DNA from: Nereocystis luetkeana
Lineage: Eukaryota; Sar; Phaeophyceae; Laminariales; Laminariaceae
DNA length: 64,000 nucleotides
Assembly (NCBI GenBank): GCA_031213475.1
Contig: JARUPZ010000013.1
Location: forward strand, 6,366,739 to 6,430,738
Direction: 5' to 3'
Below, one piece after another: positions 1 to 64,000 of the stretch (the first letter of the stretch is position 1; each line of letters starts with the position of its first letter). The notes under the pieces are model-generated. The model was given only the letters and a program-made list of their open reading frames with translations, searched no databases and had not been told where the DNA came from. Made by a program: the position numbers and the translations under genes.

Positions 1-1390
1 GCAGACGACACGCCTCGCCAAGAAATACATACCTGATCAGGTATATACGTACCATGCACCTGGAATGTACCAGTAGATGATATGAGTACCAGGGTGGAGA
101 TAAGGCACGTGCGTTTTGTCAAAATCTTGAAGATATCTCATCAGCCGTGATATCGAGAAGTTCGTCGAATCGTCTGTGCAAGCTGCGTGTGATATTCCGA
201 TCGCGCATACTACGGCGTGATAACCTCGTGAAGGGTATGCCAGGTCCAAAATGCAGGCAGGTCGTCTTGGCGCACGATGCTGTGTCCAAATGTTGTGTTT
301 TTGCCCGTGTCCAAAAGTTTCCTGCCAGGTGCTTGGTATCATTCTCCCGCAGCGTTGGTCCGAGCAGACTGCAACTGATAGACGTGTTTGTAGTATGAAA
401 GTTTGAATATACCTGGTATGATATATGTAATATTAGGGCCAGGGGTGGGCGATTAATTTGTTTTGGACACCTCACGTCAAAATATTCAACTTCGACCTAC
501 CCGACAGGGGGGGGGCATCTGACACCGTCCCCTCCCTCTACGCCTGGACAATAACTATTACCAGGTATACACAAAGCAGAACACAGGGAACGGTAGAGAT
601 CCGCCCCCCCCTGCTTGATACAAAACCTTCAATAGTACTATAAAACACTACTGGGTGGCAACCTAGCCACACCTGCGTAGCGGCGGCGACTGCAGCAGTA
701 GTGAGAGGTACTAAGGAGCTACGAGTATGAGCTCGCTCGAAGGTAGATCAGAAGGCCCCGGAGAGCCGTGGGATCGGCAGCGTTGGCTAGATGAGCACTA
801 GGGCACATACTACAGATCGAAGGACCCCAGGAATCCTCCACTGCGTATATCCTTGCAACGACATCCCATCAGAGAAACCAACCGCTGACCGCACCTGGTG
901 CCATTGATACCTCGCCTGCCTACCTGCAACGTGTCCTGTACGCTACGGTCGGAAAAATCGTGAACAGTCTTCGACACTCAAATATTACATCATGAAATTT
1001 CTGTCTAAGCCGTGGGACGGTATGACTGTGCTGAACTACGAGCACATGCCAGTATTGTATGCCCGTTAAACACATGATCATGTAGTGTACGGCCACGTAG
1101 CAAAGCAGAGCAATGCTAAATATAATATGTCGCACGAGGGATGTGATGTGATGCTACCTTATTTTTACTCGATGTAAGGGTTGTGTATGCCTCTCGTTTA
1201 CTGTCACACAAATTGCACACACCCCACACACCAGACACAAAAACAAAAAAACGGGGGTTATGTTTTTCCGGCCCCTCCGAGTTGGGAGGAGGAGGGCGGG
1301 GCAGCAAGGTGTATGATACCCCGATCCACGGCTATCCTCGTTAGGGCCCATATTAACGGGTTTATTTTCATTTTTGTTGATTTTTATTTG
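1..1390. other. Left flank, no gene recognised
   Basis: Only short open frames (up to about 118 residues) on both strands, none with a recognisable family. The text is non-repetitive apart from scattered partial TACCAGGTA/TACCTGGTA words (for example near 410 and 568) and short homopolymer G or C runs. Confidence 0.5.
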
Positions 1391-1399
1391 ATTTCATGA

Positions 1400-2215
1400 A
1401 GAATACCAGGCCCTTCTTTGGGATTTCTCCCGTGTTTTTGTGGGGGATTCGGGGTTATCCCGTGGCCCCGTGATAAACGTGGAACCCCGCTCCCGCACAA
1501 ACATGTCCCGTACAAATTCTTATATCCCGTTCCCCCGCCACGGCAACGTGTATATCTCATTTCCGCACAAACGAGTCCCGCGCAAAAACACATATCCCGT
1601 TCACGTCCCGTAAATTTCAGGGTATTCCGAATCTCGCGAATAGAATATAGTATATTAATAGTATAGTAACGTGAAATACCGCCGCCGTTAAGCTTCTTCA
1701 ATTATTGAATACCTGGTAGTGAATATTGATCACCCCCCCGCAGAAGGATGGACTATGACTGTGCACGTACAAGCGTCAGGTTCGGAGTTCAACTAGCATT
1801 TGACTCTTTGTGTTTTCCCTAATTCGTTTTCGTGAACGAACAATGTGCTACTAATCGTAGTACGTACTGTAAACCTGGTGTAATACATTGAAATTCCCTG
1901 TACTGAACACAGCAGTCCCGTCAAATATCAAATAACTTTGTAGCCGCGTCCAGTACATAATCCCGTGTTGTACCGCGGTAGCGGGATCCCGCCCGTTTTA
2001 TCTCGTCGTGGCTGGATCCCGTTCCGGGAAGTACAGCGGTGGTCGGGTCCCGCCCAATAAATTCCGTCGAATCCCGTCGTGGCTAGATTCCATACAAAAT
2101 ATCCCGTTGAGTCCTGTGGAGACTGAAGCCCGTCCCGGGGCGTCCCGTGGTGGCCAGACCCCACACAAGCAGTACCGTGAAGTCCCGGGGTAACTGATTC
2201 CCGCGGGATGTTTGC
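1400..2215. repeat. Word island: TCCCG / ATCCCGT
   Basis: The pentamer TCCCG, usually as ATCCCGT or GTCCCG, recurs dozens of times at irregular 10-40-bp spacing, densest at 1425-1625 and 1915-2205. Spacers are not alignable to each other, so this is not a plain tandem satellite. Inverted forms such as CGGGA and complete CCCGGG or GGATCCCG contexts also occur. No protein is evident on either strand. Confidence 0.7.
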
Positions 2216-4370: not shown

Positions 4371-4374
4371 AGAG

Positions 4375-4870
4375 CTCGTTATAGGCCGCCGGCGCGTTTT
4401 GCGCATAAGTCGTTTTGCGCTGTACTACAGCAGTAGTACCAGGTACTGTACACGTTAAAAAAACGCCGCAAAAAAGCCTTCAAATATGCATTGGCTGGGT
4501 TTTTATATCCGTTGTAAAGAGCCCGAAACGTAACCCATACCAGTATGTGGGTGTACGTACTATTATTTCCAAGTGGTTTGCCCCAAAATGACTGGTATAG
4601 TTGAAAAAGTAGTTGTAAAACTCCACACTACTGCGGCGAAAACAGCCTTGACAGTTTCAAGCCTACGGCATTTCCCCCCGCCCATAAAACTTTTTCGCAT
4701 GAGGCGCAAAAGGCTCTCCACAACATTTTTTTCGCCTGCGGCGAAACGTGTTGCGCAGGTCTAATTGCGTGTTGCGCAAAGCGTGTTGTGCATACATATA
4801 TATGCTTTTGATTTCGCGACAAATATTGCGCTGGCGCAACAGCTCGACGCCTATATTCATAGGGGGCCCT
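4375..4870. repeat. Word island: TTGCGCAA / TTTGCGC
   Basis: Copies of TTGCGC, TTTTGCGC and their complement GCGCAA cluster here (for example 4396-4420, 4698-4711, 4750-4785 and 4825-4845), some as the full palindrome TTGCGCAA. Architecture is like the other islands in the window: one short self-complementary word with diverged spacers. Open frames across it (reverse 4628-4987) are explained by the repeated word and are not called as genes. Confidence 0.5.
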
Positions 4871-16063: not shown

Positions 16064-16424
16064 GGAAACTACATGCTCAACACAGGTTCACAGGACTGTA
16101 TGATATAGAGCTTATATACCGCACAAGATACTATATATGTGTTCCGTCAGTCCTGTTCGCATGCCGTTGCTAGGGCGCACTGCGTATGCAGCGAGTGGCT
16201 CTGTTTGCTGTCCGGAAGAGCGTTCAGCACTACGTGCGTACAGACGATGGAGTCGCGGGAGGGCGTACAATAGAAATGGGTCTGAAGTTTTGTCAGGCCA
16301 CTACGGAGTCCAGTGGGACCAACAGCAGTGTCGTCGGTGTCGACAGGGCACCATCCAAAGAGTACCGCCCTTCCGCAGCAAGAATGCACAGATGCTCCCA
16401 TTACCTGGGAGTAATTTTTTTACC

Positions 16425-16965
16425 TACAGTAGTAGTACTCGGGTTTATGTACTGCGGATGCCGCGAATACGCAGAAGTATTTCGAGGTTCTCAGTATTGC
16501 GGATACTTTGCGGACCCCAAGCAGTATTTTGGGGTTAAGTACTCGCAGTACCGCAATTCTTTCTATATGCGCGGGGTTCGAAGTATACTCCGACCATCTG
16601 TACACCGTTGCGATAAATGTATATCCCATTTTTTTGCTGAAAACTTCCACAGATAGCCCCACTAAGGGCAGTTGGAGCGTATTGCTTTCGGGAAGGGCAG
16701 CTGAAGTGTAATTCACGTCAAGAGTACTTAAGAGTACTGGCAGTATTTCGGGAGTATACTCTGAGTACTTGCTTGCTGTGATTCCAGGTTCAATGTATAT
16801 ATATAGGTCCTCGCAATACTGCGAGTATTTCGGAGGTTTGTATCAATAGTGCGGGTACAGCTTGTACTCGCGGTTCTGTATTGCTCGTACTCCTACGGTA
16901 GTACTCGCAGTATTCAGGCCGCCAGTACTGCAATACTCTCAGTACTAGTACGATATGTATTGGAT
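16425..16965. repeat. Word island: TACTCGCAGTA / TACTGCGAGTA
   Basis: The word TACTCGCAGTA and one-base variants recur on both strands (full copies at about 16542-16552 and 16902-16912, inverted TACTGCGAGTA at about 16819-16829), embedded in AGTACT- and GCGAGTATT-rich text. It resembles the TACTCCGAGTA islands but with CGCA in the core instead of CCGA. It lies just upstream of the cyclin L intron acceptor. Confidence 0.7.
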
Positions 16966-17172
16966 ACTCGTTTTACTGGGAGCATCTGTGCAAGGATGCC
17001 GCCCGATCGTTTTCGCGAGCGTCCACAGAAGTCCCAGATACTCATGTTGGTTTGCTGGGTATGATATTTGATTATCACCTGGACATCATACTTTAACTAC
17101 TGTATCATCAATAGTGTACTTATACTCCACGCATTTGTTTTGCCTTTCGTATGTTTTTGTTCGCTGCTGAAG

Positions 17173-18433
17173 GTTGCCGCAGGTGGTGATGTGCACCGCG
17201 CAGAACTTGCTCCAGAGATTCTTTTACCGCAAGTCGCTCACCAAGTTTGACGCGTACAGCGTGGCGATGGCCTGCATGGTTCTGGCGATGAAGATCGAAG
17301 AGGACCCGCGCCACCTTCGTGCCGTGGTGCTGGTGTTTCACCGCATGTTCGAACGGCGGATGGGTGTGGAGCCTTCAGGCGTGATTACATCTGAGTCGCA
17401 CAGAGTGTTGCGAGATGAAATGTTGAGAGTGGAACTTCATGTCCTGAAGGAGCTGGGTTTTGGTTTCTACAACATTATGGACCATCCCCACAAGTTCATT
17501 CTCTATTACCTGAGGGTGCTGGAGTTGGACATAGAAGGAGACGTGTCACAACGAGCTTGGAATTACGTAAACGACTCTCTACGGACAGATTTGTCGCTGC
17601 GGTTCCGCTCTGAAGTCATTGCTTGTGCGGCAATCTACATGGCATCGCGCTCGCTTGGCATCAAGCTGCCTGATAACCCGCCATGGTGGGTTCTCTTCAA
17701 TGCAGACATGACGGAAATGGGCGAAATCTGCAACACTATCTTGGCTCTTTACCACCGACCGAAAGTGGCCTTCTTGGAGCCGCTGTGTGAAAACAGCATC
17801 TTCAGGAGAGGAGGTCCTCTTCGCAAGGATGCGGGTGTGGAGGACACTCGTGAGGTATACACCCCAGCGGATGGGGGGGAGGAACCAGTGATGGCTGTTT
17901 CTTTGCCGGAATCGCAACCAGCGCCGAAGGAAGCACCGAAGGAAGCAGAAAAGGAAGACGGTCCTAGCACACAGGAGCCTGAAGTGTGTCTAGCCCCTGC
18001 GGGGCCTCTAGCGGCGCTTGCCCCCGCGGATGACAAAGCTCGTGCTACCACAAGCCCGGAGATACTGGATTCTTTTGCAGCAGGCGGCAGTGCCGTCCAT
18101 GTGTCTGACAGCAACGAGACCGATGTTGCGTTTACCAACAAGGGGCCTGAACGAGGGAGCGAGAGCAGGAGCGAAAGCCAAGGTCGGAGTCGGAGCCGCA
18201 GCAAGAGCTACAGGAGTCAAAGCACAAATCGCAGTGCACCCGCAGTGGAACGCGATGATGGTGCTGATCAAGAATCGAACGGGAACGGGCGCCCACCAGA
18301 GAGGGCGCAGGATCGGGACAGGGATCGCAAGCGCCCTAGAGAATCCAGACGCAGCCGGAGTCGGAGCCGGGAGAGGGATAGTCGGCGGAGAGACAGCAGC
18401 AAAGAACGAGATTCGGATCGGGACCGGGGGAGA

Positions 18434-18477
<44 letters not shown>

Positions 18478-18643
18478 TAGGGACAGGGACAGGGACAGGG
18501 ACAGAGACAGGGACAGGGACAGGGACAGGGACAGAGACCGGGACAGGGACAGAGAGAGGGGGAGGGACTGGGGAAGGGGTAGAGATCGCAAAAAGGAAAG
18601 ACGGCAGGATCGCGGGGACAGCAGTAGGAGGAGTCGTCGGTAG
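17173..18643 (+). CDS. Cyclin L, exon 2 (cyclin folds and RS/RD tail)
   Basis: Second exon; its first base completes Arg61. It continues L62-P-Q-V-V-M, then the first cyclin fold with L-A-M-K-I-E-E-D-P (about residues 98-106), an E-L-G-F helix and H-P-H-K, and the second fold with W190-N-Y-V-N-D-S-L-R-T and [11 protein letters not shown] (about 210-220). The cyclin region ends near residue 255. After an acidic/proline-rich linker come RS dipeptides (about 389-411 and 452-461) and an uninterrupted Arg-Asp run (about 474-521). Total length is about 550, close to known cyclin L proteins. In that family the protein binds CDK11, localises to nuclear speckles through the RS region and acts in transcription-coupled splicing. 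The stop is TAG at 18641-18643. A DNA (GGGACA)n expansion underlies the RD run. Confidence 0.93.
18431..18555 (+). repeat. In-frame (GGGACA)n hexanucleotide repeat in cyclin L
   Basis: About twenty GGGACA units with a few GGGATA or AGAGAC variants encode Arg-Asp dipeptides. The unit length is a multiple of three, so length changes keep the reading frame. Frames opened on the other strand (Ser-Leu repeats) are shadows. Confidence 0.9.
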
Positions 18644-26991: not shown

Positions 26992-27020
26992 GGCCCGACC
27001 GCCGCGGGGGCCGGAGGGCC
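26992..27020 (+). repeat. Terminal hairpin of X copy A
   Basis: Inverted repeat GGCCC...GGGCC enclosing a second C+G stem, 10 bp from the terminal CCCTAG. It is conserved at 48182-48210 and 57638-57666. Confidence 0.6.
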
Positions 27021-43480: not shown

Positions 43481-43489
43481 ACACCCCGC

Positions 43490-44662
43490 AAACCCCATCG
43501 AGCAGGAACACACACTGGAGAGGGCGCGGGAAGGACGAGGAGGTGGACAGACTGGTGGAGACACTCGCGCTGGGGGGCAAGCACGCAAACGGCGTACTGG
43601 AACAAGTGGGAATGGTGCCGTCTCAGAGCGATTGAAGGGAAGAAGAGTCCGTGGCTAGCAGAGGGTGATAGAGTCGACGCAGCAGTGAAAGAGTCGACGA
43701 AATTCATGGCCCTGCCATGATTTGCATTCAAAAGCCAAAGCCAGACAATACGAGGTTATCTATCCGTGATTAAGTATTTCCACAGAATGGTCGGATGTTG
43801 GGAGCTGTCCACTTCACGCTGCAAGGTTGTAGCCGTATGGAAAGGGATCGATAGTGCTCACGGGAAATCAGAGATACGCCCCAAGGTCAGGAAGCATCTT
43901 ACGTGGGACCTGTTGACCACGGGGATGAAGAGCGCGTGTGAGGTGAGAACCGAAGGAGGGGTAGTCTGGACCGGACTGGCGTTGTCGTTTCATCTTCTTT
44001 GTAGAGCCTTTGAAATTTTGGGCCTACGGCGACGGGCTGGTACACGCAGATTTTTGTCTGACGAGGAAAGACTTGGCGTTTTTTCGGAAGCGTTCCAACT
44101 AGCATGGGAAGAAAGACGTGCTGCAGACAGAGTAGAAGTGACGTTCCGCGCTTCCAAGTCAGACTCCAAGAGGTTGGAGTCAATCGTCACAAGGACGAAA
44201 GTAACGAAAGGGAAGGGAAGGGTTTGGGACGTGAAGAGTCAGGGGGCGTTGGAGATCCTTCTGGATTTACTAGACCTTCATCCCGAACGGAGCAGGTTAG
44301 CACCATTGATGCAGACACGCAAGGCCACAGGGTGGAAAGTGATCACGCACACCGTTGCAACAAAGGCCTTGAGGTGGATGTTAAGCAGTTTGGGTAGAGA
44401 TTCGACTCAGTACGCTTTCCACTCAGGCAGGATCGGGGGGGCAACCCAGCTTGCTGCGCAAGGCGCATCGGGCATTCAGATTCGAAGGGCGGGGAGATGG
44501 AAATCGCTAGCGTTTTTAGTCTATAGCCGGTCGCCCCGGTGGTTCAAGTGGTTAACCTCGAATTTTACTTGTTTGAGTCCTGGGTTTGAGTCCTGGGTTC
44601 GAGCCCCAGGTGGGTCGGGCTTTGACTTTATTTGCAAAAATAAAAAAGGATTCAATTGTTGA
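43490..44662 (+). pseudogene. DIRS tyrosine recombinase, broken and extended into a SINE
   Basis: Integrase-type tyrosine recombinase of the DIRS element. The core-binding part (43540-43630) carries a small deletion relative to copy 1 that shifts frame, and a TGA follows A-L-P near 43718. The catalytic part is open from 43766: first Arg in F-H-L-L-C-R-A-F-E, then H-S-G-R-I-G-G-A-T (the H-x-x-R box), G-R-W-K-S and the terminal Tyr in L-V-Y at 44522-44524. In copy 1 the stop codon follows this Tyr directly. Here SINE2 begins at that codon, so the frame continues about 46 residues into SINE sequence before stopping at 44660-44662. The enzyme would integrate circular DNA; this copy is inactive. 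Confidence 0.88.
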
Positions 44663-44884
44663 GAGCGCCTTGCAGCGTGGGTAGGCACAATTCGATGCGA
44701 ATCGACGAGGGAAGAAAAGGCTGAAATATTCTCGCGATAAAAATTGAAGGCACGTACCGTAGCGGGAAGGGGGGAGAAGAGCCTGCTATGTGACCCCGGA
44801 TCTGAGTTACGAGTTGGAAAGAGAGAGAGAAGAAGATGTGCGAAGATAATGAATGGGATGAGAAACAAAAAAAAAATAAAAATG
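44525..44884 (+). mobile_element. SINE2 copy a, inserted at the recombinase stop codon
   Basis: tRNA-derived SINE: head AGCCGGTCGCCCCGGTGGTT, box A TGGTTCAAGTGG, box B GGGTTCGAGCCCC and an A-rich end. An internal duplication of TTGAGTCCTGGG lies in the head. DIRS copy 1 lacks the insertion (near 32893). No clear target duplication. Confidence 0.85.
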
Positions 44885-45185: not shown

Positions 45186-45381
45186 AATATTCGAAGCGAA
45201 TATGGAGTTTGTTAAAAAGGCGTTTGATAAGAATTGGAAGGCATTACAATGTGACATATGGCAAGTGGGTCATGGATGAGGGTACCTGGTCAGAGTTTGT
45301 GCCCCAAGCAGAGGGGGAGAACCACTCTAGAGAAAAGGCAGGCAGAACGCAAGATAATTGTAGCCAAATATGGGCAGTGAT
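45186..45381 (+). repeat. DIRS direct terminal repeat A2
   Basis: Matches A1 in the same orientation. Its end at CAGTGAT is where family X copy B begins; other copies continue ATACATACAGG. Confidence 0.8.
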
Positions 45382-46559
45382 TAATTATATATAGACAGCA
45401 TGATGCCCAATTTATAATTTCATCAAAGTATTGCCTCTAATATTAACTTGTTAAAAAAAACATATTCCTCACGTATTCACAACGTTTTTAAGCTCCCTTC
45501 TCTTGCAACAACGTTAAAAAAAATGTATCTCTTACCTACTCCGAAATCACCTGTTGCAAGCTGCCTTCGTGCAACGTTCCAAGCTCTTGTCCTTTGCGAC
45601 GTCATCTTCGAAACACGCATGTGTTCCTGCCCTCCTGCGCTTTTTGAACACCCGCTCCTCGTCATCTACCGCCGCTTCACCCGAAGTCCATCGAATTAAA
45701 TGTTTTTCGAGCTATCGAGGGGTTCACGCAATCTTCTCTGTCGTCTTTTGTACATTACACACGCCGTGCTGTGGACTATTGCAGAGAACAAAGCAGTACC
45801 TTCCTCTATAAGCTCTGCAACAACGCCCAATTTCCAAATCATTTTACTTATCTCCTTCTACCACATAACACTGCTGTAGATACACAATCATGCACGCTTG
45901 ACACGAGAAGGTATCTGTTTGTCCCGCTGCGTTGTTGGTCGAGATCGTACTTGGCCGTTACGTACGAGTATCGAAAACCCGCCGCAAATTTTATTATGTA
46001 ACCAACCGACACCTCCCGTATAGAGAGGATGAGGAGCGACGCTCGCAACACCGCGTTGGTGGTGGCCCGTGGCGATCATGATGAGTTTCGGCACGAAGAC
46101 CTTGCCCCGAGCAACACCAACTCGACTGCATACAGCAGCGGAAGGAAGAAGCCAACCTGAAGTACCTGTGATGAGACAACACAAACCGCCTACACGGTGC
46201 GAAAGACATTAGCTCTCCTATTAATAGCAGGAGCGGATGCATGACGCGTATGCGCGGTTCGTTTACGATCCCCTGTCGGTTCACGTTTGCTCGTGCCGGC
46301 TGCGTTTGATCCCCGGCCATTTTTACCACTCAGCTTGACGCTGCTACTGCTGCTCCTCCTTCTGTTGTTTCGACATCGTATGATGCTGTTGTTGGCACCC
46401 TACTCGAGCTCTACTCCTACGTTAATATCAGTAAGAATCACGATGATCCAAAACAGCTTTTCACGACGTCAAAACTCGCCCTATATCACCTGTGAAGCAG
46501 CCGGTTTGACGGTTTTTGTGGGTTGTACCGACATCGCTCGAGACTCGAAAGCGGTCGAT

Positions 46560-47345
46560 TTCTCGGTATTATACTCGACACTCGTCGGAGTGTCGAGTAA
46601 TTTTCGTACTCCGAGTACTCCGAGTAGTAGAGTACTGGTGGCCTAAATAAATACTCGGAGTACTTGGAGTATGAGCAGTAATGAAGGGCCGAAACCCCCG
46701 AGTACTGGGAGTATTAGCAGTACTTATACTCGAGTACAAGCAGTACCCGGAGTACAAACATCTCACTTACTCGGAGTACTCCGAGTATCGGGAGTATTGA
46801 ACCCAGGAATACTTCATCATCCGAGTTAAATGCTCAGAGTAATACTCTAACCCGGAGTACCTTGGAGTATAAAACCCTGAAATACTCCGAGTATTACTCG
46901 TACCTCGGAATATGAACCCTAAAATACTCCGAGTATTGAAGTTATTGCAGTACGAAATACCCAACTACTCCGAGAACGTAAAGTAGGAGCAGTACAAGAT
47001 TCCCAAATACTTGAAGTACAACGAGTATTCCGGAGTAATGAACACCAAAATACTCGGAATACAACAGTATTTCAGAGTATCGAACCCCTAAATTCCCCTA
47101 TTACGGGGGACCATAGTTAATAGGACCTATGGTATACATAAAAACCTATATATTTAACCATTTTTACTAACAATATTTGGTCCTATTAACTATGGTCCCC
47201 CGTAATAGTACAAGCAGTATTGACAGTGATCATACCCAAAATACTCCGAGTACGAGCAGTATCCCGGAGTATCGAGCCCTGAAATACTCCGAGTACACGA
47301 AGTACCTGAACTGGAGTAATTCATCTTCGATACTCGTTACTTTAC
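46560..47345. repeat. Word island: TACTCCGAGTA, in X copy B
   Basis: Same architecture and largely alignable to 25560-26150, including spacers such as GAACCCAGGAATACT. The word itself is better conserved than the spacers. Interrupted by the MITE at 47101-47205. Confidence 0.85.
47101..47205. mobile_element. 105-bp MITE with perfect TIRs and TA duplication
   Basis: Perfect 27-bp terminal inverted repeats (first 20 bases TTACGGGGGACCATAGTTAA) flanked by TA on both sides (47099-47100 and 47206-47207). X copy A has a single uninterrupted CCCTAGTACAAGC at the equivalent place (about 26012-26024). TA duplication and size suggest a Tc1/mariner-type MITE. Confidence 0.88.
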
Positions 47346-48223
47346 TCCGAGGTACTCGGAGCATCTATCTGCCCCTTCCCATATTGATATCTCACAAGCA
47401 TCGTCTGGCCTTTGCTCAGCACGACCCAATCCGGGACACTCTTCCGTTGATGACCACCATAACTACAGTAGCCGTTCTTCGTGCAAATACTTCTCGTATG
47501 GCATTTACAGTTTGCGTTACCACTGGTGCTGCCGTCTCCATCATCCTCGTATTTGTGTTGGTAAGTTCGACATCATTTTCATTTCATTACCCCATACCAG
47601 CACGGTCGTCTGACTTCTGCTCTGACACCTCGATTCAACACACCTCATCCTCTCGATTAAAGTGGTGATATTGACGACCGTTCATTCGGATATTTCGGCG
47701 TCCGACCCTGCGGGCACTCCTTGCACCCGTGGCATTTGGATATTAGTACTACTCACACTCGCACATACTCGCAACATTCAGGGTAGTATTTCGAGGTTTG
47801 AAGTTGAGTACTGCTCATACTCCCAGTCACTCGCAATGTTGAGGCCGCAAACACCCTAAGAGTCTCAGCATTCAGAGTACGAAATTTGCTCGATACGGAA
47901 ACAGTCGATACTTCGAGTGTGGTCCCTCTGCTGTGCGTTTATCGTATTACCCGCAGATAGTACTGCATTGTACTGCTGCAACCAACGACCAATAAAGTTG
48001 CAGTGTGAGATTTCAGAGAGGGAGCAAGCACATCAAACAAATATTGCCCAATTCATAATTTTAACGTATATTGAGGTCCTACATAAAGTGACTTTCAAAG
48101 TGGTTTGCACGGGGCCACAATTAATGTCCATCCTATGTATTGGCTCATCTATTTTAGCTCCTATTATATCTACAGGAATCTGGCCCGACCGCCGTGGGGG
48201 CGCGAGGGCCTTTTATCCCCTAG

Positions 48224-49390: not shown

Positions 49391-50254
49391 ATGACAAACG
49401 AAACTCGTGCCCTACTTATTTGTACTCGTAGTTCTCGGCGAACGAAAACAATGCAAATGCGATTCTATCGATTACGAATGCACTTGAAGGCGTCTGGTAC
49501 CTGTAATATGTATCGTGAGCCTCCGTAGTGCCTGGCACGATATCGGCTGGGAAGGGCTTCGACTAAAGGCCTACCAATACGATAGAGAATATTACAGCGC
49601 TGTATACTTTCTAATGGGGGTGATAATCAGAAGAGATGACGATGGAGGCTAATGCTACAGTCGTTTTGGGTTGATTTCGATAGCATACTTGTGGCTGGTT
49701 CATGTCGATACGAGCGTTGTAGGATCACTAACGTGAATCTACGGAAGTTTAAAAAGAGAGAAGAAAACAACATTTTTCGGAACTAACTTGAAAAAAACAA
49801 AAAACAAAAAAGTGGGTCTCAAAACGCGACTATATTTTCCCATTGTTAGTTAGGTGGGCATCGAAGCAAACTATATTTATATGAGTAATGGATGTAGTAC
49901 AGATTGAAACCGTGCCTTCCATATTTGTCTGGTGAATGTATAGGAAGACCCACGCAGGTTCTGGGTGTGATATTTCTTTGGTTTGCGTGCTATTCCACGC
50001 GTTGAATCTGCCACATCAGCAGCCGTTATGTTTCCCAGGTATGAGTTGGAGTTTTGTTTTTTTGGTAGCTGTAGAAAGATTGATCACACTTCGAAAGCAA
50101 AGAAGGAACGGTTAATATTATTCGACGAGGAGATGTTACGGCATGGCCCCTCTCTTTGGGCCGCTATCCGCTCGGTCTCACTTAGTTCGCCAGCTGTTGT
50201 TGCCGTTCGTTGAGAGAGTCTTGATGAAGGTTTAACCCGCACACGTGGCCATAT
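49391..50254. other. No gene recognised
   Basis: Mostly unique-looking A/T-rich text. The block at about 50134-50222 (CCGCTATCCGCTCGGTCTCA, GTTGAGAGAGTCTTGATGAAGG) matches the start of the foldback arm at 61075-61150. Confidence 0.45.
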
Positions 50255-52226
50255 GTCTCCCCCAAAAACCCTCTACAGCCAAACGGCGCCCTCTGGAGGG
50301 CAAGTGTCCCTCTAGAGTGAAAATGTACCCTCCAGAGGGTTTATCTATTTTCCGCTCGTCAAAAAAGGCACATCCTAGAGGGTTGTACGTAAAAAAAACT
50401 TTAAACGTCTTCAAACGTTGCCCTCTAGAGGTGCATTTCGGAGTCGAGATTCCTTCTAGAGTTTTATTTCTACGAATGCCACCCTCTAGAGTGACTATCG
50501 TCCCTCTGGAGGGTTTCACTGCTTTCTGCCCTGGGACACAAACCCCTGTAGAGGTTTTACACGAAAAAAAACCTTTACATATCCGTTTGATTTCCCTCTA
50601 GAGGGGTAACTGTAATTACATTTCCCTCTAGAGTATTGTTTCACTAGTACACCCTCTAGAGGGTGAAACAAGCGTAACGTACTCCAGAGAAACTATAGCA
50701 ACCACCCTCTAGAGTCTATACAACAAACCCTCTGCCGTATATATCCGACAAACCCTCTGGAGGCGGAGTGTTTGGAAAGTTCGTTGTCCTCGCTTTTTGA
50801 AGGAACACTCCGGAGGATAAAAAATCAATCATCCTCAGGAGTTAGTAACACAAACCCTCTATCAAACGACTAAACACTCTGGAGTATTTCAGGTATTTAT
50901 TTAGTGCTGTCCAGCCGGTCGCCCCGGTGGTTCAAGTGGTTAACCTCGAATTCTACTTGTTTGAGTCCTGGGTTCGAGCCCCAGGTGGGTCGGACTTTGA
51001 CTTTATTTTGGAAAATAAAAAAGGATTCAATTGTTGAGAGCGCCTTGCAGCGTGGGTAGGCCCAATTCGATGCGAGTCGACGAGGGAAGAAAAGGCTGAA
51101 ATCTTCTCGCGATAAAAATTGAAGGCACGTACCGTAGCGGGAAGGGGGGAGAAGAGCCTACTATGCGACCCCGGATCTGAGTTACGAGTTGGAAGGAGAG
51201 AGAGAAGAAGATGCGCGAAGATAATGAATGGGATGAGAAAAAAAAAAGAAAAAAAAAGAAGTGCAGCACCATGTCAAATTCCCTCTATAGTATATTTTAA
51301 CCAATAACCCTCCAGAGTGTACAACAAACGGCATGTACTCCAGAGGAACCTATGCAACCACAACAAACGACATGTACTCCAGAGGAACCTATGCAACCAC
51401 CCTGTAACCACCCTCTAGAGTATACCTCACAAGCCCTCTGGGGTATATATCCGCCGAACACTCTGGAGTTATTGGCGGAGTGATTGCAAAGCTCCTAGCC
51501 CTCGCTTTTTGAAGGAAAACTCCGCAGGAATAAAAAACAGTCATCCTCTAGAGTTTATAACACAAACCCTCTAAAGTGTCAAACGCCAAAACACTCTGGA
51601 GTATTTCAGGTATTTGTTCAGTGGTGTCTAGAAGTGCAACACCATGTCAAATTCCCTCTAGAGTGTATTTTAACCAATAACCCTCTAGAGTGTACAACAA
51701 ATGGGATATACTCCAGAGGAACCCATGCAACCACCCTGTAACCACCCTGTAGAGTGTATGCACTAATCCCTGTGGGGTATTTTTCTGACAAACCCTCTGC
51801 AGTGTTTGGCAGAGCATTGGGAAAGTTCCTAGCCGTCGTTTGATAAAGGAACTACTCTGGAGGATGGAGAAATGATCATTCTCTGGAGTTTATACCCCTA
51901 ACCCTCTGGAGTGTCAAACGGCAAAACACTCTGGAGTATATAAGGTATTTACTCAGTAGTGAAATGAGGTGCAACACCATGTTAAACTCCCTCTAGAGTT
52001 TAAATATACCATTAACCCTCTAGAGTGTACATACAATAAACGTGACGTACTCCAGAGGAACCACAGCAACCACCCTGTAACCACCCTCTAGAGTACACCT
52101 AACAAACCCTCTGGAGTTATTGGCGGAATGTTTGGAAAGGTGGTTGCCCTTGCTTTTTGAAGGAACACTCCAGTGGATGGAAAACCCATCATCCTCTTGA
52201 GTTCATAACTCAAACCCTCTATTTAT
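50255..52226. repeat. Word island: CCTCTAGAGG / CTCTGGAG / CTCCAGAG
   Basis: CTCTAGAG and one-base variants recur roughly every 20-45 bp. The first part (50255-50600) has no longer-range order. From about 50600 the words lie in a higher-order tandem unit of about 335-373 bp: U1 50600-50912, U2 51258-51630, U3 51631-51965, U4 51966-52226 (partial), each starting near GAAGTGCAACACCATGT and ending near GTATTTAGTCAGTG-like text. SINE2 copy b sits between U1 and U2. No coding capacity. Confidence 0.85.
50913..51257 (+). mobile_element. SINE2 copy b, full length
   Basis: Head AGCCGGTCGCCCCGGTGGTT, box A TGGTTCAAGTGG (50928-50939), box B GGGTTCGAGCCCC (50970-50982, perfect T-arm CTGGG/CCCAG), body matching 44525-44884 and an A-rich end. 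The equivalent junction between U2 and U3 (51620-51640, GTGTCTAGAAGTGC) has no SINE. Confidence 0.9.
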
Positions 52227-52233: not shown

Positions 52234-52852
52234 GAGGGAGGTGTCGGTTGGTAAAATAATAAAAATTGCATCGGGTTTTCGAACCGTAACCTGTAACGGC
52301 AAAGTACGATCTCGACCAACAACGCGGCGGGACAGATACCTTCTCGTGTCAAGCTGCATGATTGATTGAGTATAGCAGTGTGTGCTGCGGTAGAAGGAGA
52401 TAGGGAGGATGATTTGGAAATTGGGTGTTGTTGCAAAGCTTATAGAGGAAGGTACTGCAGTAATCCTCAGTGCGGCGTATGTAGTGTACAAAAGACGACA
52501 GAGAGGATTGCGTGAACCCCTCGGTAGCTCGAAATACTTCTATTTCGATGGTTCGGGTGAAGCGGCGGTAGATGAAAAGGACCGGATGTTCAAAGTGCAG
52601 GAGGGCAGGAACACATGCGTGTTTCGAAGATGACGTCGCAAAGGACAAGATCTTGGAACGTTGCACGAAGGCAGCTTGCAAAAGGTGGTTTCGGAGTATG
52701 TGAGAGATACATTTTGTTTTACGTTGGTGCATGAAGGGAGCTAAGAAACGTTGTGAGTACGTGAGGTATACATTTTTTCAACAAGTTGGTAATAGAGAGG
52801 CAATACTATGATGAAGTTATAAATTGGGTATGACTCTGTCTATAAATAATTA
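52234..52852 (-). mobile_element. Family X element, copy C (5' part, inverted)
   Basis: Reverse-strand match to the first ~620 bp of X (from GCCCAATTTATA-like ACCCAATTTATAACTTCATC to CCGACACCTCCC). Truncated where the CTCTAGAG island begins. Confidence 0.7.
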
Positions 52853-53214
52853 ATTGATAAATTAGCCAATAGTAGTCTTTGCTCATTGGTGACAACTAAA
52901 TAAGAAACCGAGCCTCGATGCCAAACTGGCATTTGATTCTTACTATTAAAAAAGCGGGAGCCTTTTTCTGTGGACGTAAGCATAGACTTACAGCACGCTT
53001 GACCTAATAAGAAACTGGCCAATAAGAAATCCAGGCTGAGATTTAGAGGAACATAAGAAATTCGAGAATAGTTGTCTGAAAATTAATGTAGAAAGTACTC
53101 TCTCTCAAATAAGAAATCCAGCCTGGACCATTTTTCTAGTTTCTTTTTAGGGGTCCTATACTCTATGTCACGAGCTGTTGCTTTTCGTATTTTTGGAACT
53201 TCGAAAGTCGCTAA
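52853..53214. other. No gene; AATAAGAAA words
   Basis: AATAAGAAA or ATAAGAAAT recurs five times (about 52900, 53006, 53022, 53052 and 53108) at irregular spacing. Confidence 0.4.
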
Positions 53215-54190
53215 AACCACAAATACTCCGAGTATACTCTTCGAACTCTGAGTACTGTGAGTATATTAGAGTACTGGTGACCTAAATACTCGGAGTACTT
53301 GGAGTATGAGCAGTACTGAAGGCCCAAAAACCTCCGAGTACTGGGAGTAGGAGCAGTAAATTTACTCAAGTACAACTGGCGTCCCTGGTGGCTTGGTGGG
53401 TGGTCCGCGTGCTTATCGATATCAATTTCGTGGGTTCAAGTCTCACCGAGTGCATGCTCGTAGGGACGTTTTTTTGCATAAAAAGTGGATTAGCGGAAAG
53501 CTCGAGAGCGTAAGTTAGCTACATTCGATGAAAATCGACGAGCTGTGGGAATGCTGGACCCTATGCGAACAAAAAATAAAGGCACGTACCGGGGGGGAGA
53601 AGCGACGACACCTGTGCCCACGACTTGTCCAGAAGCTCGTTGAGGGTAAAACTTCCTACCAGGTACGAGATAGGCTGGAAAGTAAAAGTGATGATTAAAA
53701 AAAAGGAAAAAACAAAACTCGAGTACAAGCATTACCCGGAGTACAAACATCCAAATTACTCGGAGTACTCCGAGTATCACGAGTATTGAACCCAGGAATA
53801 CTTCTCCATCCGAGTTAAATACTTCGAGTAATACTCCAACCCGGAGTACCTTGGAATATAAAACCCTGAAATACTCCGAGTGTTGAAATTTTCGCAGTAC
53901 GAAATGAAGGCCCAAGTACTCCGAGTACTTGAATTGAAGTAGGAGCAGTACAAGATCCCAAATACTTCAAGTACAACGAGTATTCCAGAGTAATGAACCC
54001 CGAAATACTCGGAGTACAACAGTATTTCAGAGTATCGGACCCCAAAATACTCCGAGTACAAACAGTATTGAGAGTGATCATACCCGAAATACGACGAATA
54101 CGAGCAGTTTCCCGAAGTATCGAGCCCCGAAATACTCCGAGTACACGAAGTACCTGAATTGAAGTAATTTATCTCCGATACTCGTTATTT
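53215..54190. repeat. Word island: TACTCCGAGTA, third copy (without the rest of X)
   Basis: ACTCCGAGTA/ACTCGGAGTA words with spacers that still align to the X islands (GGCCTAAATACTCGG, GAACCCAGGAATACTTC), but X flanking sequence is absent. Split by SINE1 copy f. Followed directly by family E copy 3. Confidence 0.8.
53376..53716 (+). mobile_element. SINE1 copy f, full length, with target duplication
   Basis: 341 bp flanked by ACTCAAGTACAA (53364-53375) and ACTCGAGTACAA (53717-53728), a 12-bp target duplication with one mismatch; the X islands show the uninterrupted ACTCGAGTACAAGCAGTACC at 46731. Box A TGGCTTGGTGG (53389-53399), box B GGGTTCAAGTCTC (53432-53444); CGTCCCT (53380-53386) can pair with AGGGACG (53462-53468) as an acceptor stem. 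Confidence 0.9.
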
Positions 54191-54206
54191 TACTTCAAGG
54201 TACTCG

Positions 54207-55027
54207 GGTATAACGGATGTTGCGTCCTTGTTGCTGCGAAACTTTGCCCACAGCCAGTCTGTGTGTCTCTCTCTCGTCTCTGTGTGGTGTTCTAATAGAC
54301 TTACACATCTCCTGCTTCGCGTCGACTCGGGTGGCTGACTCGCTCGAGTGGTACAGCTATGTGCTGGCCTCGAGCTGAGCTTGGTCATCCGAGGCGTACC
54401 ATAATATTGCAGTATTCGAGGGTAGGCCAGTTGTCGCATTGGAAATTTCGAGTTTGAGGGTTGGGTGTGGATATCGTTCAGTCAGGTATCTATCGTGTGG
54501 GCATATTGACGTCTTGAGTATTTGGTCTTCGGATATATTATTCGGGTCTTCTTCGGGTTTTGGGTCTATCACCGGGTTGGGGATCTTCTACTTCGGTCTG
54601 GTGGTGTTCAAGGTTTTGGGTGGAATTTGGGTGGATCTCTACCCTTCAATTGGAGCTAGAATTGCTTGCTGCTACAAATTACAAAATAGACGCATATCTA
54701 CAATAAAGGTCGGTTAAGCCAATATCGCGTACTTTGGGATCTTGGCTACATTCATTCGGGTGCGGGGTGTCATCGGGTCGAGTGGTGGACGATCAGGGCG
54801 ATCGACTGTTCGAGTGGAGCAGCAGCCGATCGGAGCAACAGTTTAGCTGGAGCATACTTTTGGATACGAGTCGAGCACACGAATCACCAAAATTTGTCTA
54901 CGAGTACGAGGTACGAATACAACAATATTTATCAACAAAATATATCTTGAAAGACACTGGTGGGTAAAAACTTGTCGACAGGATCTTTTCGGTGAGAGGT
55001 GAGAACGAGGCCAACTATCAGTACCTT
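54207..55027 (+). mobile_element. Family E element, copy 3 (partial)
   Basis: Forward copy from TATAACGGATGTTGCGTCC through GACTCGCTCGAGTGGTACAG, AATAAAGGTCGGTTAAGC, GATCGACTGTTCGAGTGG and ACTGGTGGGTAAAAACTTG to the leader GAGGCCAACTATCAGTACC. The first ~45 bp of the terminal unit and the ORF are missing. Confidence 0.7.
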
Positions 55028-56297: not shown

Positions 56298-56873
56298 TTG
56301 TGTGACCACGGACTCCTTCGTCAGAGAGTTAATGTGAGAACAACAACAGCAATAGGCAGAGAGAGTGCTGGTAGCTCTGTTGCAGACATAGAGGATGCAC
56401 GCTTTGGTGTAGAACGTCCCAGCAAAAGAAATTCAAGTGCTCGCGTGGGGATTCACCGTGAAGCTCGTCGAGTACGGACGAGATCTGATAGCCGGTCGAG
56501 GGCCGATAGCCGACAGGGTACTGTTGGTAGTCTAAGCCCTGGTTCTCAAGCTAGAGAATTGCGGGTGTTGATATTGGGAGCTCCAATTAATAGCAGCTTA
56601 CCAAGCCATGATGTTAACGAAGCGTCGGCCAGAGAGTCGACAAGACGTTGTGAGGTTGGTGATGACGTCGAAATCCCTTCCGCACGTAATTATTGCATTC
56701 AAAACGACTATGATCTCATTGCCTCTGGTGTGAGGAGTGGTATGTCTCCCGCAAAAAAGTTCCCCAAGCTGCTGGGTGCACGGGAACGGGATATCCGTGA
56801 GTTTCTCGATTCCCTACATGAGGTAGAAGACCGGCGTGGCTGTAATATCCGAGATCTGATTCCGGGGTTCGTC
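56298..56873 (+). pseudogene. Divergent relative of the family E protein, truncated by X copy D
   Basis: About 192 codons before the match to family X begins. The first ~110 residues are Ser/Arg-rich and probably disordered (R-V-R-T-R-S-D-S-R-S-R-A-D-S-R). Residues about 130-192 contain Q-N-D-Y-D-L-I, F-L-D-S-L-H-E-V-E-D and C-N-I-R-D-L-I-P-G-F, which align by eye at roughly half of positions with the ORF at 63489-64000. The frame then continues into X sequence and ends at 57107, so the real C-terminus is lost. Start codon uncertain (TTG/GTG-type at 56298). Family not recognised. Confidence 0.45.
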
Positions 56874-57679
56874 CGGCACACTCTTCTGTCGATGACCACC
56901 ATAATTACTGTAGCCGTTCTCCGTGCTGATACGTCTCGTACGGCATTTACATTTTTTACGTTACCACTGGTGCTGCCGTCTCCATCATCCTCGTGTTTGT
57001 GTTGGCAAGTTCGACATCGTTTTCGTTTCATTACCCCATACCAGCACGGTCGTCTGACCTTTGCTCTGACACCTCGATTCAACACACCTCATCCTCGATT
57101 AAGGTGATAATATTGACGGCCGTTCATTCGGATATTTCGGCGTCCGACCCTGCGGGCACTCCTTGCACCCGTGGCATTTGGATATTTAGTACTACTCACA
57201 CTCGCACTTACCCGCAACATTTAGGCAGTATTTCGAGGTTTGAAGTTGAATACTGCTCACACTCCCAGTCACTCGCAATGTTGAGGCCACAAACACCCTA
57301 AGAGTCTCAGCATTCAGAGAACGAAATTTGCTCGATACGGAAACAGCCGATACTCTGAGTGTGGTCCCTCTGCTGTGCGTTTATCGTATTACCCACAGAT
57401 TGTATTGCATCGTATTGCTGCAACCAACGACCAATAAAGTTGCAGTGTGTGATTCCAGAGAGGGGGCAAGCACATCGGATAAATATTGCACAATTATTTT
57501 TAACGCTTGTGTATTGAGGTCCTACATAAAGTGACTTTCAGAGTGGTTTTCTTGAATTTAAAGCACGGGGCCACAATTAATGTCCATCCTATGTATTGGC
57601 TCACCTATTTTAGCTCTTATGACATCTACAGGAATCTGGCTCGACCGCCGTGGGGGCGGGAGGGCCTTTTATTCCCTAG
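56874..57679 (+). mobile_element. Family X element, copy D (3' part)
   Basis: Matches X from CCGGCACACTCTTCTGTCGA, just after the word island, to the hairpin (57638-57666) and terminal CCCTAG. Confidence 0.7.
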
Positions 57680-58171
57680 TAACCTATATACGTCCTCTAT
57701 TGATGTTGAAAAAAGAATACAGACTGTCTGCGAGCTACCCCCCCTGTATGCTTCACCGTGCACGCGTATCAATAAATCAACCCTGTCCGGGGAATAACTA
57801 CTATTAATAGTAATTGGTGGTAATGAGGCGCGACCTCGGTAATACCTGCAGTAGTCATATCTGTGATGCATCATGCTGGGCGAATGAATACGGATTAGTT
57901 TCTTATTGTGCTGAACGAACGAACACAGAGGAACATCTATCACGCACGTACTACTACTGTCGCCATCGTGGGTGCATCTAAAAAAAATCGTAAAGGTTCT
58001 TGTCCTTTTTTCTTGATCATATATGAAAAACACAGCAGTAGCAGTACGCACACACTTGTAACAAAGACTGGATTTGGTCGTGTGTATCCTGCTTTCCACC
58101 TCGAAATCCGGCATACCTGGTAATAATTTGGAGACTGAAAAATCTGCACTGCTGTGACCACAGAACTTTAT
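57680..58171. other. No gene recognised
   Basis: Short frames on both strands; no domain or repeat recognised. Confidence 0.35.
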
Positions 58172-59000: not shown

Positions 59001-59104
59001 CTGCAGCACATGACCCGAACGTTGCTGTGGACAGACAGGCGAAGTCTGCCTATGACTGCTCGTAGGTTGGTTTCGTTAGTTATTACGTAGGTAGAAGAAA
59101 GAGC

Positions 59105-60838: not shown

Positions 60839-62646
60839 TGCTCACCTCCACTATCCATGTGCATCAGCAGAACCTATTCAAAATCTCTACGCGAGATGCT
60901 CACCTTCATCTCTCTGCGCTCGATAAAACTAGCCACCCATCAGATTCCAAAACACGGGCCCAGATACTTGGGTACCGATCTTCCGTGTCCCTGCCAGAGC
61001 TCATGCCCTTGTGCTCCAATCTCCCCCTCTCTCTGTCATCTTCTGGGCTCACCATATTACAGCTTGGCCTCCCTTTTGGGGCCGCTATCCGCTCGGTCTC
61101 ACTTCGATAGCCAGCTGTTGTCGTTCATTGAGAGAGTCCTGACGGAGGTTTCCTCCGTAACTCGTTCCCTAATCCTCTCTGGCCACGAGGTGGCCAGACG
61201 CCAGACGCCACAGAGTCGAGTGTTGGTATTTATCCGCAAAGGTGACGTGGGATTAACAGACAGGCAAGTGATAGGCAATACTCATGCACGGCGTGTGAAC
61301 GGGATGTGGTTGGACTTGTTTCTTTCGTTCTTTAGTGGGATTGACTTCAACCCAGGTAGCGCCATGGAGCACCCGTATCGACCACTACAGCCAATGCACC
61401 CGTATCGACCACTACAGCCAATGCGGGGTTTCCATGACCCAGACAATGGCTTTCCCCGCCGGGGACACGCCATTGTATTCCTACATCGATACGCCAACGA
61501 GACATCCTACGGCCTTATCGCTGTCTCACACGATGCACCCTCCACACGTCACTGGTCAGGGCAGTCGACGTACATTACAGGATACCCTGTCGCTCTCCTG
61601 GGCGACTTCTGGAGCCCGTAGCGCTCACACACACCCCCCGCCCCCCCCTACCCCGACAAAACACTCGACCCACGGGGGCGCTCACCTCGCCAAAAGCTTG
61701 GAACCCAGGAGATTTAACAGCATACAAACCTATCAGACCCCTGGAAACACCACGGCATCCAAACCTCAGGGAGGGGCTCACCTTCACCTCCCCTCTCAGC
61801 GATAGCACAATGGCAAGTGCCTACCTCCACTTGCAAGGTGCTATGCCCTCAGTGCTTACCTTCACTGAACTCAATCCACGTGGGCGCTTACCTCGCCACA
61901 AACCCGGCCTCCAGGACACTCAACAGCAGCAGCGCCCGGCAGAGAGGAGAAGCTGAAGGCGTAGGAGCCGCATCACTAGAATCGGGGATGTCCGTACATG
62001 GGCCGAAGCTAGTTAAGAATCGAACGGATAAGGAAGGGTGCGGCAGCCGGTTCGTCGGTGAAGTTGAGGAGGAGTTGCCCACGCTGTTACCGGGAAGTGG
62101 CCGGGAAACCCGCTGTGCGCCGACGATAGTTATGCGTCGGGCAGGGGGGGTGTTGCAGCGCTACGGGCTCCAGAAGTCGCCCAGGAGGGCGACAGGGTAT
62201 CCTGTGATGTACGTCGACTGACCTGACCAGTGACGTATAATAGAGGTGCATCGTGTAAGACAGCGATAAGGCCGTGGGATGGCTCGCTGTCATATCGATG
62301 TAGGAATACAATGGTGTGTCCCCGGCGGGGGAAGCCATTGTCTTGGTCATGGAAACCCCGCATCGGCTGTAGTGGTCGATACGGGTGCTCCGTGGCGCTA
62401 CCTGGGGTTTAGTCAATCCCACCAAAGAACGAAAGAAACAAGTCCAACCACATCCCGTTCACACGCCGTGCATGAGTATTGCCTATCACTTGCCTGTCTG
62501 TTAATCCCACGTCGCCTTTGCGGATAAATACCAACACTCGACACCGTGGCGTCTGGCCACCTCGTGGCCAGAGAGGATAAGGAACAAGGGACGGAGGAAA
62601 CCTCCATAATCAGGACTCTCTCAACGAACGGCAACAGCTGGCTATC
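60839..62646. mobile_element. 1.8-kb foldback insertion with 17-bp target duplication
   Basis: Flanked by GCAGTATTCGAGGGTAG (60822-60838) and GCAGTGTTCGAGGGTAG (62647-62663). Inside are long inverted arms, 61105-61626 and 62156-62647, about 500 bp each and highly similar, around a ~530-bp centre. The left arm has an extra 27-bp tandem duplication (CACCCGTATCGACCACTACA, near 61370-61420). A forward frame 60857-61621 spans the left arm, but the right arm's indels break the equivalent frame. Confidence 0.75.
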
Positions 62647-63298
62647 GCAGTGTTCGAGGGTAGGCCGGTTGTCACACGGGAAATTTCGAGTTGAGGGTTA
62701 GATGTGGATATCTTTCGGTGACAGGTATCGATCGTGTAGGCATATTGACGTCATTGGTATTCGGATATATTCTCCGGGTCTTGGGTCTATCGTCGGGTTG
62801 AGAATCTTCTACTTCGGAAAGGTGGTGTTCAAGGCTTTAGAATTCGGGTGGAGCTCTAGCTTCAGGTGGGGCTAGGTTTGCTTTTGCTGCTACAAATTAC
62901 AAAATATACGTATATCTACAATAAAGGTCGATTGAGCCATTACCGCCTTCTTCGGGATCTTTGGGTACATTCATTAGGGTGCGAGGTGTCTGTCATCGGG
63001 ACGAGTGGTGGACGGTCGGGGTGATCGACTGTCCGGGTAGAGCAGCAGCCGATTGGAGCAACAGCTTGGCTGGAGCATATGTTTGGATACGAATCGAGCA
63101 CACGAATCACCAAGTTTTGTCTACGAGTACGAGGTACGAATACAACAATATTTATCAACAAAATATATCTTAAAAGATACTGGTGGGTGAAAAATTGTCG
63201 ACAGGATATTTTCGGTGAGAGGTGAGAGGCGAGGCCAACTATAAGTACCTTTGTCCTGATACTCTTTAATTCGGATTCCTAACTTGGCGGACTAGGAT

Positions 63299-63488
63299 AT
63301 GGAATGCTGGGAAGGTTCGGTCGGTCGGTCGTTTGGTCCAGACCAAGGTCGAGGGGCTAGTGGTGCGTCACGAGGTGCTCATATGTACGAGTAAGAGTCT
63401 GGAGCTTCATCGATTCCTCGTACAGATTCAGAGGGTCGTCGTATTTTAGGTGGAAATAATGCCGTTTCAAAATGTAACCTCGAAACAC
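63299..63488 (+). pseudogene. Family E ORF leader, broken
   Basis: ATG at 63299-63301 gives M-E-C-W-E-G-S-V-G-R and the leader seen in copies 1 and 2. A TAA at about 63392-63394 (after H-M-Y-E) and a two-base insertion near 63500 separate it from the downstream frame. In copy 1 the same region is open and in frame. Confidence 0.5.
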
Positions 63489-64000
63489 ATGATTTTGATC
63501 GACTGCGAGTACGACGCGATTAGGACAGCCGTGGTACGTGGCCTTTCTTCCCGAAGCAGAAAACTGGCCAAACTTATTGGTGGTCAGGTGGATGATATCG
63601 GCTTGTTCCTCGATTCCCTTGCGAAGCTGGATGACTTGAGAGATTGTTACATTCGAGATTTGATTCCAGTATTTCTGCTGCAACGGCTATGCATGGCGGC
63701 AGGCTATACAGGTGATACTTCTCGCATTTCCAATGACGACCTGCTGGACTGCCTGCATGCTAAGGCATGCCATAAGCGCAAGCTAGATGCTATCTCTGTG
63801 GAAGAATCGCTTTGCTCAATTGCTCGATCGGTTGATCCTGCGACAAACGCTGCTGATATGGCGCGATTTGTTGAGACGCTATTTGACGATATGTGCAAGT
63901 TCGTTGCCGAAGTTGGAATAAGTGATTTTTTCATGGTTGGGGGAGATTTTCGAGGCGCCTGGAAATCAGCACCAGCACAACTTTGCACGAGGATACTCTT
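63489..64000 (+). CDS. Family E protein, unrecognised, 3' end beyond the window
   Basis: Open from ATG 63489 to the window end (more than 170 codons, no stop). The product is mostly helical-looking and soluble: Y-D-A-I-R-T-A-V-V-R-G-L, F-L-D-S-L-A-K-L-D-D, Y-I-R-D-L-I-P-V-F-L-L-Q-R-L, a Cys/His pair in C-L-H-A-K-A-C-H (about residues 88-95), then D-M-A-R-F-V-E-T-L-F-D-D-M-C-K and D-F-F-M-V-G-G-D-F-R. No signal peptide or membrane span. Half of positions match the ORF at 56298-56873 over ~55 residues, so this is a real protein family. Position after an LTR-like unit and primer-like TGGTGGGT suggests a Gag-like protein, but no known Gag or transposase motif is visible. Confidence 0.55.
   Translation, partial: MILIDCEYDAIRTAVVRGLSSRSRKLAKLIGGQVDDIGLFLDSLAKLDDLRDCYIRDLIPVFLLQRLCMAAGYTGDTSRISNDDLLDCLHAKACHKRKLDAISVEESLCSIARSVDPATNAADMARFVETLFDDMCKFVAEVGISDFFMVGGDFRGAWKSAPAQLCTRIL

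Follow-up and report, generated by a model that had tools for sequence, protein, structure and literature searches.

The 64,000-nucleotide stretch of the Nereocystis luetkeana genome analysed here (the window) lies on contig C13 of a 465-Mb, 1987-contig assembly. Its sequence is eukaryotic, since it contains a cyclin L exon (17171–18643; the top solved-structure matches are cyclin-L2 and cyclin-L1), which is embedded in sequence rich in nested repeats. Pfam searches with 16 open reading frames (ORFs) of the window yielded only Cyclin_N and one sub-cut-off cyclin C-terminal match, and an Rfam scan gave no match at gathering score. The subject of this report is a set of short words that recur in blocks, or islands, of the window (TACTCCGAGTA in three islands; TACTCGCAGTA, CCTCTAGAGG, TTGCGCAA and TCCCG in one each), the Helitron that carries the TACTCCGAGTA islands, and a scattered word, TACCAGGTA (TACCWGGTA). 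Assembly stretches fetched for comparison are given L-numbers (L013, L016 to L091) and contigs C-numbers.

Clustering of the words

Word counts were compared with 200 dinucleotide shuffles of each block. With up to two mismatches, TACTCCGAGTA is present 17, 20 and 20 times in its three blocks (shuffle means 0.4–0.5, maximum 4) and the CCTCTAGAGG count is 33 (mean 1.2, maximum 5), while TACTCGCAGTA reaches 9 (mean 0.3, maximum 2) and exact TCCCG 22 (mean 3.3, maximum 7). The count for TTGCGCAA is 11 (mean 4.5, maximum 10); its exact form is found once in its own block and twice in the window, and only its part GCGCAA clusters (8 versus 0.9). Within their own blocks, exact copies of TACTCGCAGTA and of CCTCTAGAGG number three each. 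The clustering claimed in the preliminary description of this DNA is thus strong for TACTCCGAGTA and CCTCTAGAGG, clear for TACTCGCAGTA and TCCCG, and weak for TTGCGCAA. Counted over the whole genome, with the reversed word as control, exact TACTCCGAGTA sites number 5,060 versus 102 and TACTCGCAGTA sites 2,096 versus 108. Tandem units of ∼630 bp in L022–L025, L013 and L019, several with one TACTCCGAGTA each, contribute solitary words to this total. Twelve stretches of viral contigs that contain two TACTCCGAGTA words were set aside, the four viewed having the appearance of regular short tandem repeats. A literature search on TACTCCGAGTA and TACCAGGTA, judged by titles and the openings of abstracts, found nothing on these words among the papers listed.

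A non-autonomous Helitron carries the TACTCCGAGTA array

The three TACTCCGAGTA islands are copies of one dispersed repeat, and the dispersed unit exceeds the island, as its copies A and B are alike on both flanks. The carrier is a non-autonomous canonical Helitron. Copy A is full-length (24170–27033, forward strand; 2,864 bp), with a 5′ A/TC end at 24170 and a 3′ CTAG/T end at 27033 (the slash marks the element boundary), and the sequence of its 3′ hairpin region (26990–27020, forward strand) lies 9 nt before CTAG. Copy B (45377–48223, forward strand, start approximate) has lost the 5′ TC and ends in CTAG/T at 48223. The window also contains a 5′ fragment of the family with an A/TC end (52236–52857, reverse strand), which adjoins the CCTCTAGAGG island, and a 3′ part without an island that has the CTAG/T end (56872–57679, forward strand). 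Canonical Helitrons are characterized by a 5′ TC, a 3′ CTRR, a palindrome ∼11 bp before the 3′ end and insertion between A and T without duplication, as summarized in PMC4067079.

First-look searches of the genome, in which 40 candidates per query were scored, gave 540 candidates for the array, 435 for the 5′ end and 418 for the 3′ end, and the family probably comprises several hundred copies. The scored right-end matches end at query positions 131–137 of 137. Eleven left ends (out of the 40 scored) and nine right ends were fetched as short pieces. At nine of the 11 left ends the sequence is A/TCTATTAATTATATATAGACAG or a near match, and the A/TC end is also present in copy A and in the reverse-strand 5′ fragment of the window, though not in copy B. 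The two deviant left ends are L064 (G000:C14:1743836-1743956), a junction of two Helitrons arranged head to tail in which a 3′ end abuts the next 5′ region, and L069, which has TA replacing TC. At the other end, CTAG/T follows the hairpin region in 15 of 18 distinct copies, those of the window and the longer loci included; it is absent in L073, L074 (the same copy as L058) and L085. The 3′ palindrome, GGCCCGACCGCC-GTGGG-GGCGGGAGGGCC, is located 9 nt upstream of CTAG. Inspected by eye, the flanks viewed for copies A and B share no target duplication. The hallmarks of Helentrons and HINEs (T-rich or TT insertion and no TC...CTRR ends) are not those of this family, which has A/T insertion and TC and CTAG ends. 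Two observations weigh against the assignment: the 3′ hairpin fold is no more stable than shuffles (z −0.5 to −1.4), and no autonomous partner has been tied to the family. The genome gives 58 matches to Helitron_like_N, 10 of which have an open frame of 1,634 residues. Two short copies were fetched whole, of which L084 has both ends and no TACTNNNAGTA and L085 keeps seven. The array is thus dispensable for the existence of a Helitron copy, although L084 may have lost it after insertion. A long foldback element, suggested by inverted arms in L049 and L033 (G000:C7), was rejected: the arms are two Helitron copies in opposite orientation, 91% alike mutually and only 80–87% alike to the window copies.

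Within one TACTCCGAGTA island the sequence is a diverged minisatellite of ∼42 bp (Tandem Repeats Finder rows of 42–44 bp with 69–87% matches), and part of the spacer, in the printed flanks, recurs together with the word. The island in copy A (25567–26172, forward strand) is bounded by CACAGATGCTCC and GGAGCAT. That in copy B (46560–47371, forward strand) is split at about 47101–47205 by a TA-flanked miniature inverted-repeat transposable element (MITE) with 27-bp inverted ends, and island C (53217–54207, forward strand), a fragment of the same Helitron, is split at about 53376–53716 by an insertion resembling a short interspersed element (SINE). A stretch of L035 (2319–2341) is related to the MITE and holds nested TACCWGGTA words.

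Conservation was measured as the mean major-base frequency per column, with shifted word masks as the null, in an alignment of 13 arrays (three from the window, two from L033 and eight from the best-scoring genome matches). Word columns score 0.943, half-site columns 0.952 and columns that are neither 0.940; 316 of 477 shifted masks are at least equal to the real full-word mask, and 63 of 477 to the mask of words plus half-sites. Since spacer and word columns are equally conserved, the array was copied in one piece, with no clear advantage for the words. The preliminary description had held that only the word is conserved, and had named spacers that align as well as words as the outcome contrary to that claim; between paralogous islands, this outcome is what the alignment gives.

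The TACTCGCAGTA island is an inverted-repeat element

Besides being related to the Helitron-borne arrays, the TACTCGCAGTA island forms an inverted-repeat element of its own, with CACAGATGCTCC ends. The element (16387–16990) is filled with the TACTCGCAGTA array and has terminal inverted repeats (TIRs) CACAGATGCTCCCA and TGGGAGCATCTGTG and flanks CAAGAATG and CAAGGATG; it starts with CACAGATGCTCCCA and ends in the exact inverse (14 of 14 positions). A genome search gave 306 candidates, of which 40 were scored, with 63–82% identity in matches of at least 90 bp, the window aside. The right TIR is present in all eight copies compared, with 0–4 mismatches of 14, five of the eight (L086–L090) having been picked because the match reached the right end. 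An outer left end was found in four of the eight, and the flanking 8-mers agree at 8 of 8 positions in L090, 7 of 8 in the window, 5 of 8 in L016 and 4 of 8 in L091. An 8-bp target duplication would place the element, tentatively, in the hAT superfamily. Several features count against this picture of the element: the duplication is clear in only two of the four copies with a left end, L090 has 4 mismatches of 14 in its own left end, and loose CACAGATGCTCC matches are not rare (43 with up to two mismatches in 348 kb).

The TACTCGCAGTA array aligns to the Helitron-borne array with 67% identity over 189 bp in copy A and 71% over 138 bp in L021, so that these two words are not unrelated, as had been supposed of all the island words. 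Ends resembling CACAGATGCTCC and GGAGCAT delimit the Helitron-borne array in copy A and in L042–L044. Because the arrays align and the Helitron array has TIR-like ends, one CACAGATGCTCC...GGAGCATCTGTG TIR element probably inserted into a Helitron, which then amplified it. As in the Helitron-borne arrays, the words of the TIR family are not significantly better conserved than the spacers: in six right arms (L090 and L091 left out) the scores are 0.796 and 0.773, and 72 of 355 shifts are as good. Among the matches listed in the first 5.66 Mb of C1, 5 of 39 TACTCCGAGTA clusters have a TACTCGCAGTA cluster no more than 1 kb away (on average 0.8 and at most 5 at random). As only these five are adjacent, the two words mostly occupy different elements. 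The proposal that the words are internal repeats of non-autonomous elements is therefore borne out for those of the form TACT..AGTA, with TACTCCGAGTA as Helitron cargo and TACTCGCAGTA filling a TIR element, and word-level conversion is unnecessary for their arrays since entire elements were copied.

The scattered word TACCWGGTA

The genome contains 182,395 copies of TACCAGGTA (91,240 + 91,155), compared with 1,744 of the reversed control (861 + 883), a mean spacing of one per 2.55 kb; the window holds 37, on both strands. In 214 kb (the window and L026–L040) there are 83, compared with 1.9 expected from trinucleotides, and nine variants in the end letters are found 0–9 times each, compared with 1.6–2.1 expected. 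The arrays and the scattered word had been linked by their shared form, a likeness of form only, as TACCAGGTA looks distinct from the island words in being a 7-bp insertion at TA.

At a few sites TACCAGGTA is a 7-bp insertion with the TA duplicated. The 5′ end of Helitron copy L085 reads TTAATTACCAGGTATATTA where the family has TTAATTATATA, that is, with the word at a TA. At 22470–22478 the word has a paralogue that lacks it (L049); at 53657–53665 it lies inside a SINE-like repeat, and of the 10 paralogue matches that span it, 7 give a clean alignment to the empty site; at 58114–58122 the window reads TACCTGGTA, and in the paralogue L061, which lacks the 7 bp, the sequence is GGCATAATAATTTG. 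When 11 testable words were aligned to paralogues, four had a 7-bp gap at the word, three had only full-length partners and four were unclear, compared with a 7-bp gap in 14 of 356 control TA-N5-TA words (Fisher p = 0.001). Under less strict conditions, 16 of 100 words had spanning matches. The same four again had a clean empty site, and for another four the partner was filled or nearly so (three of these in L024 and one in L049); the other eight were unclear, three of them belonging to one nested chain. Nested chains of the word occur, for example TACCTGGTACCAGGTACCTGGTA in L035.

Target preference was assessed with 80 isolated words of 104 and a reference of 18,475 TA sites. The reconstructed target is palindromic, with R before and Y after the TA in 79% and 81% of cases, compared with 63% and 63% of TA sites. 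A second TA at the matching distance is present on the left in 25% and on the right in 21%, compared with 6% and 6% of TA sites and 8–9% of other TA-N5-TA words, and the five bases between the TAs are unlike a degenerate CCWGG, the second base from the TA being G in just 17%. The flank pattern therefore resembles the target choice of a transposase. TACAGTA (74 versus 29 expected) and TACCAGTA (20 versus 6.5) are also over-represented in the same 214 kb, and are possible minor footprints.

The target consensus and the analogy of Sleeping Beauty lead us to infer that TACCWGGTA is the excision footprint of a TA-target cut-and-paste transposon. A number of observations stand against this interpretation. 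No transposon with CCWGG ends was found in about 345 kb holding >100 words, and in the fetched loci TACCWGG is nowhere continued by a clear inverted-repeat end. The genome has no match to the Tc1/mariner-type domain DDE_3 and 28 to DDE_1, which we take to be pogo-like; the single DDE_1 locus fetched is without TA-flanked inverted repeats. The test of empty sites covers 11 words. Moreover, the footprints of one transposase vary much in some cells, according to PMC3770610, whereas here a single word dominates. A narrow literature search for genome-wide transposon footprints found no paper.

Other islands and features of the window

The CCTCTAGAGG island (50240–52226, forward strand) has a higher-order tandem repeat of 335 bp and is interrupted at 50913–51257 by a tRNA-like SINE, which is 92% alike to a second copy at 44525–44882 (labelled tRNA-Val by ARAGORN). 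The array is of low copy number and found on three contigs, that of the window, C5 and C32, with four first-look candidates in all. Its relatives on C5 and C32 have the same end at 50240 and lack the adjoining Helitron fragment; the idea that CCTCTAGAGG is also Helitron cargo, suggested by that fragment, was rejected for this reason. Two pieces of the TCCCG cluster (1428–2208, forward strand) align at 79–80% to L032. The weak GCGCAA/TTGCGC cluster lies at 4399–4836, and TTGCGCAA has no relative among the fetched loci, no genome search having been made for it. Additional islands of other words are present at L031:8190-8980 and L024:5535-6960 (TCAGATCCC; GATCTGC/GATCTGTA). As these loci were picked for other reasons, word arrays may be common in the genome.

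The stretches 30084–33370 and 42023–44662 are paralogous (87% over 1.7 kb), and their ORFs have motifs that we take to be those of a DIRS-type retrotransposon with a tyrosine recombinase; three of these ORFs were tested and had no Pfam match. A further stretch, 61229–62528, has TA on both sides and long inverted ends that match exactly over 60 bp or more in places.

Discussion

It is likely that the TACTCCGAGTA arrays are Helitron cargo and that the scattered TACCWGGTA words are, jointly with this, transposon scars. We propose that the TACTCCGAGTA minisatellite, in the middle of a non-autonomous Helitron, travels by rolling-circle copying, presumably moved by the Rep protein of the genome's own Helitrons, and that the array would go back to a TIR element (CACAGATGCTCC...GGAGCATCTGTG, 8-bp target duplication) that entered the Helitron and was amplified along with it. 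The scattered word would arise when excision of a TA-target transposon converts a TA target to TA-CCWGG-TA. With regard to the islands, this is known biology, in which rolling-circle elements carry arrays as cargo, here in a canonical Helitron and with a probable TIR-element origin of the array. The scar interpretation is the more interesting of the two and the less certain.

Other explanations differ in what they make of the words themselves. Near-palindromic words that densely fill TIR elements could be functional binding sites of a transposase or host protein, with selection conserving only the word. The Galileo transposon, whose internally repetitive TIRs are described as having multiple transposase sites (PMC3688188), offers a precedent, and by this analogy a transposase-binding role is possible; the half-site columns are also slightly more conserved (0.952 versus 0.940). 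Against this, full-word columns do not exceed spacers in the 13 Helitron-borne copies, nor significantly in the six TIR right arms, and L084 has both Helitron ends with no TACTNNNAGTA. Selected binding sites are hence disfavoured for the Helitron-borne copies, and unlikely as a general account. It is more doubtful still that the islands are plain tandem minisatellites, unconnected with mobile elements. Their tandem periods (42–44 bp in the TACTCCGAGTA islands, 335 bp in the CCTCTAGAGG island) are what such satellites would show, but in the copies examined a larger dispersed unit with fixed ends encloses the TACTCCGAGTA array, which refutes a plain satellite for the TACTCCGAGTA islands, though not for CCTCTAGAGG and TCCCG.

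The scattered word raises questions of a different kind. A discrete 9-mer spread throughout the genome might be a selected motif, such as a host binding or modification site, instead of a scar; this is improbable given its presence or absence as 7 bp at TA in paralogues, a palindromic target preference that lies outside the word, and nested chains such as that in L035. An end-joining or nuclease process that inserts a 7-bp unit without any transposon would account for the lack of a full-length CCWGG-ended element among so many words. It is rather unlikely, although somewhat less so than the selected motif, because a fixed sequence, a TA duplication and a target consensus together form the pattern of transposase action. 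In its full form, the scar interpretation holds that ∼180,000 excisions of one TA-target transposon are fossilized as identical 9-bp scars that far outnumber its surviving copies, with the target preference still readable and scars targeted again to give nested chains. We would give this an even chance.

If the scar interpretation is correct, a uniform scar repeated ∼180,000-fold would permit past transposition to be counted, dated and mapped after the transposon itself was lost, and the scars would be a large and uncounted source of frameshifting 7-bp insertions. The islands exemplify the way in which a small palindrome-rich array, dispersed by a Helitron, can become a 'word family', which is a trap for motif-finding.

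The candidate 8-bp duplication of the TACTCGCAGTA element suggests a hAT-like transposon. Unlike this element, Galileo is of the P superfamily with long TIRs, although the Galileo and Foldback transposons resemble it in being inverted-repeat elements with internal repetition and numerous short sites that are candidates for binding (PMC3688188). The Helitron-borne arrays are most readily compared with Cg_HINE of the Pacific oyster, in which, as reported in PMC7492417, short satellite-like arrays lie in the middle of non-autonomous rolling-circle elements and are dispersed throughout the genome without target duplication. However, Cg_HINE are Helentrons with average monomers of 140–180 bp and oligo-T targets (PMC7492417), whereas the elements described here have canonical A/TC...CTAG/T ends and a palindrome-rich array, a diverged minisatellite whose ends resemble TIR-element ends. 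The 154-bp repeats of Drosophila virilis Helitron-2 are likewise Helitron-derived tandem repeats dispersed with the Helitron, but their monomers are long, and the available part of that report makes no mention of palindromic words (PMC3833285). The closest parallel to the scattered word is the excision footprint of Sleeping Beauty, given as TACWGTA (TACAGTA or TACTGTA) in PMC3432063 and PMC4378557, which is also a fixed short sequence between two copies of the TA target. TACCWGGTA differs from it in having the five nucleotides CCWGG instead of the three of CWG, and in being present about 182,000 times in one natural genome.

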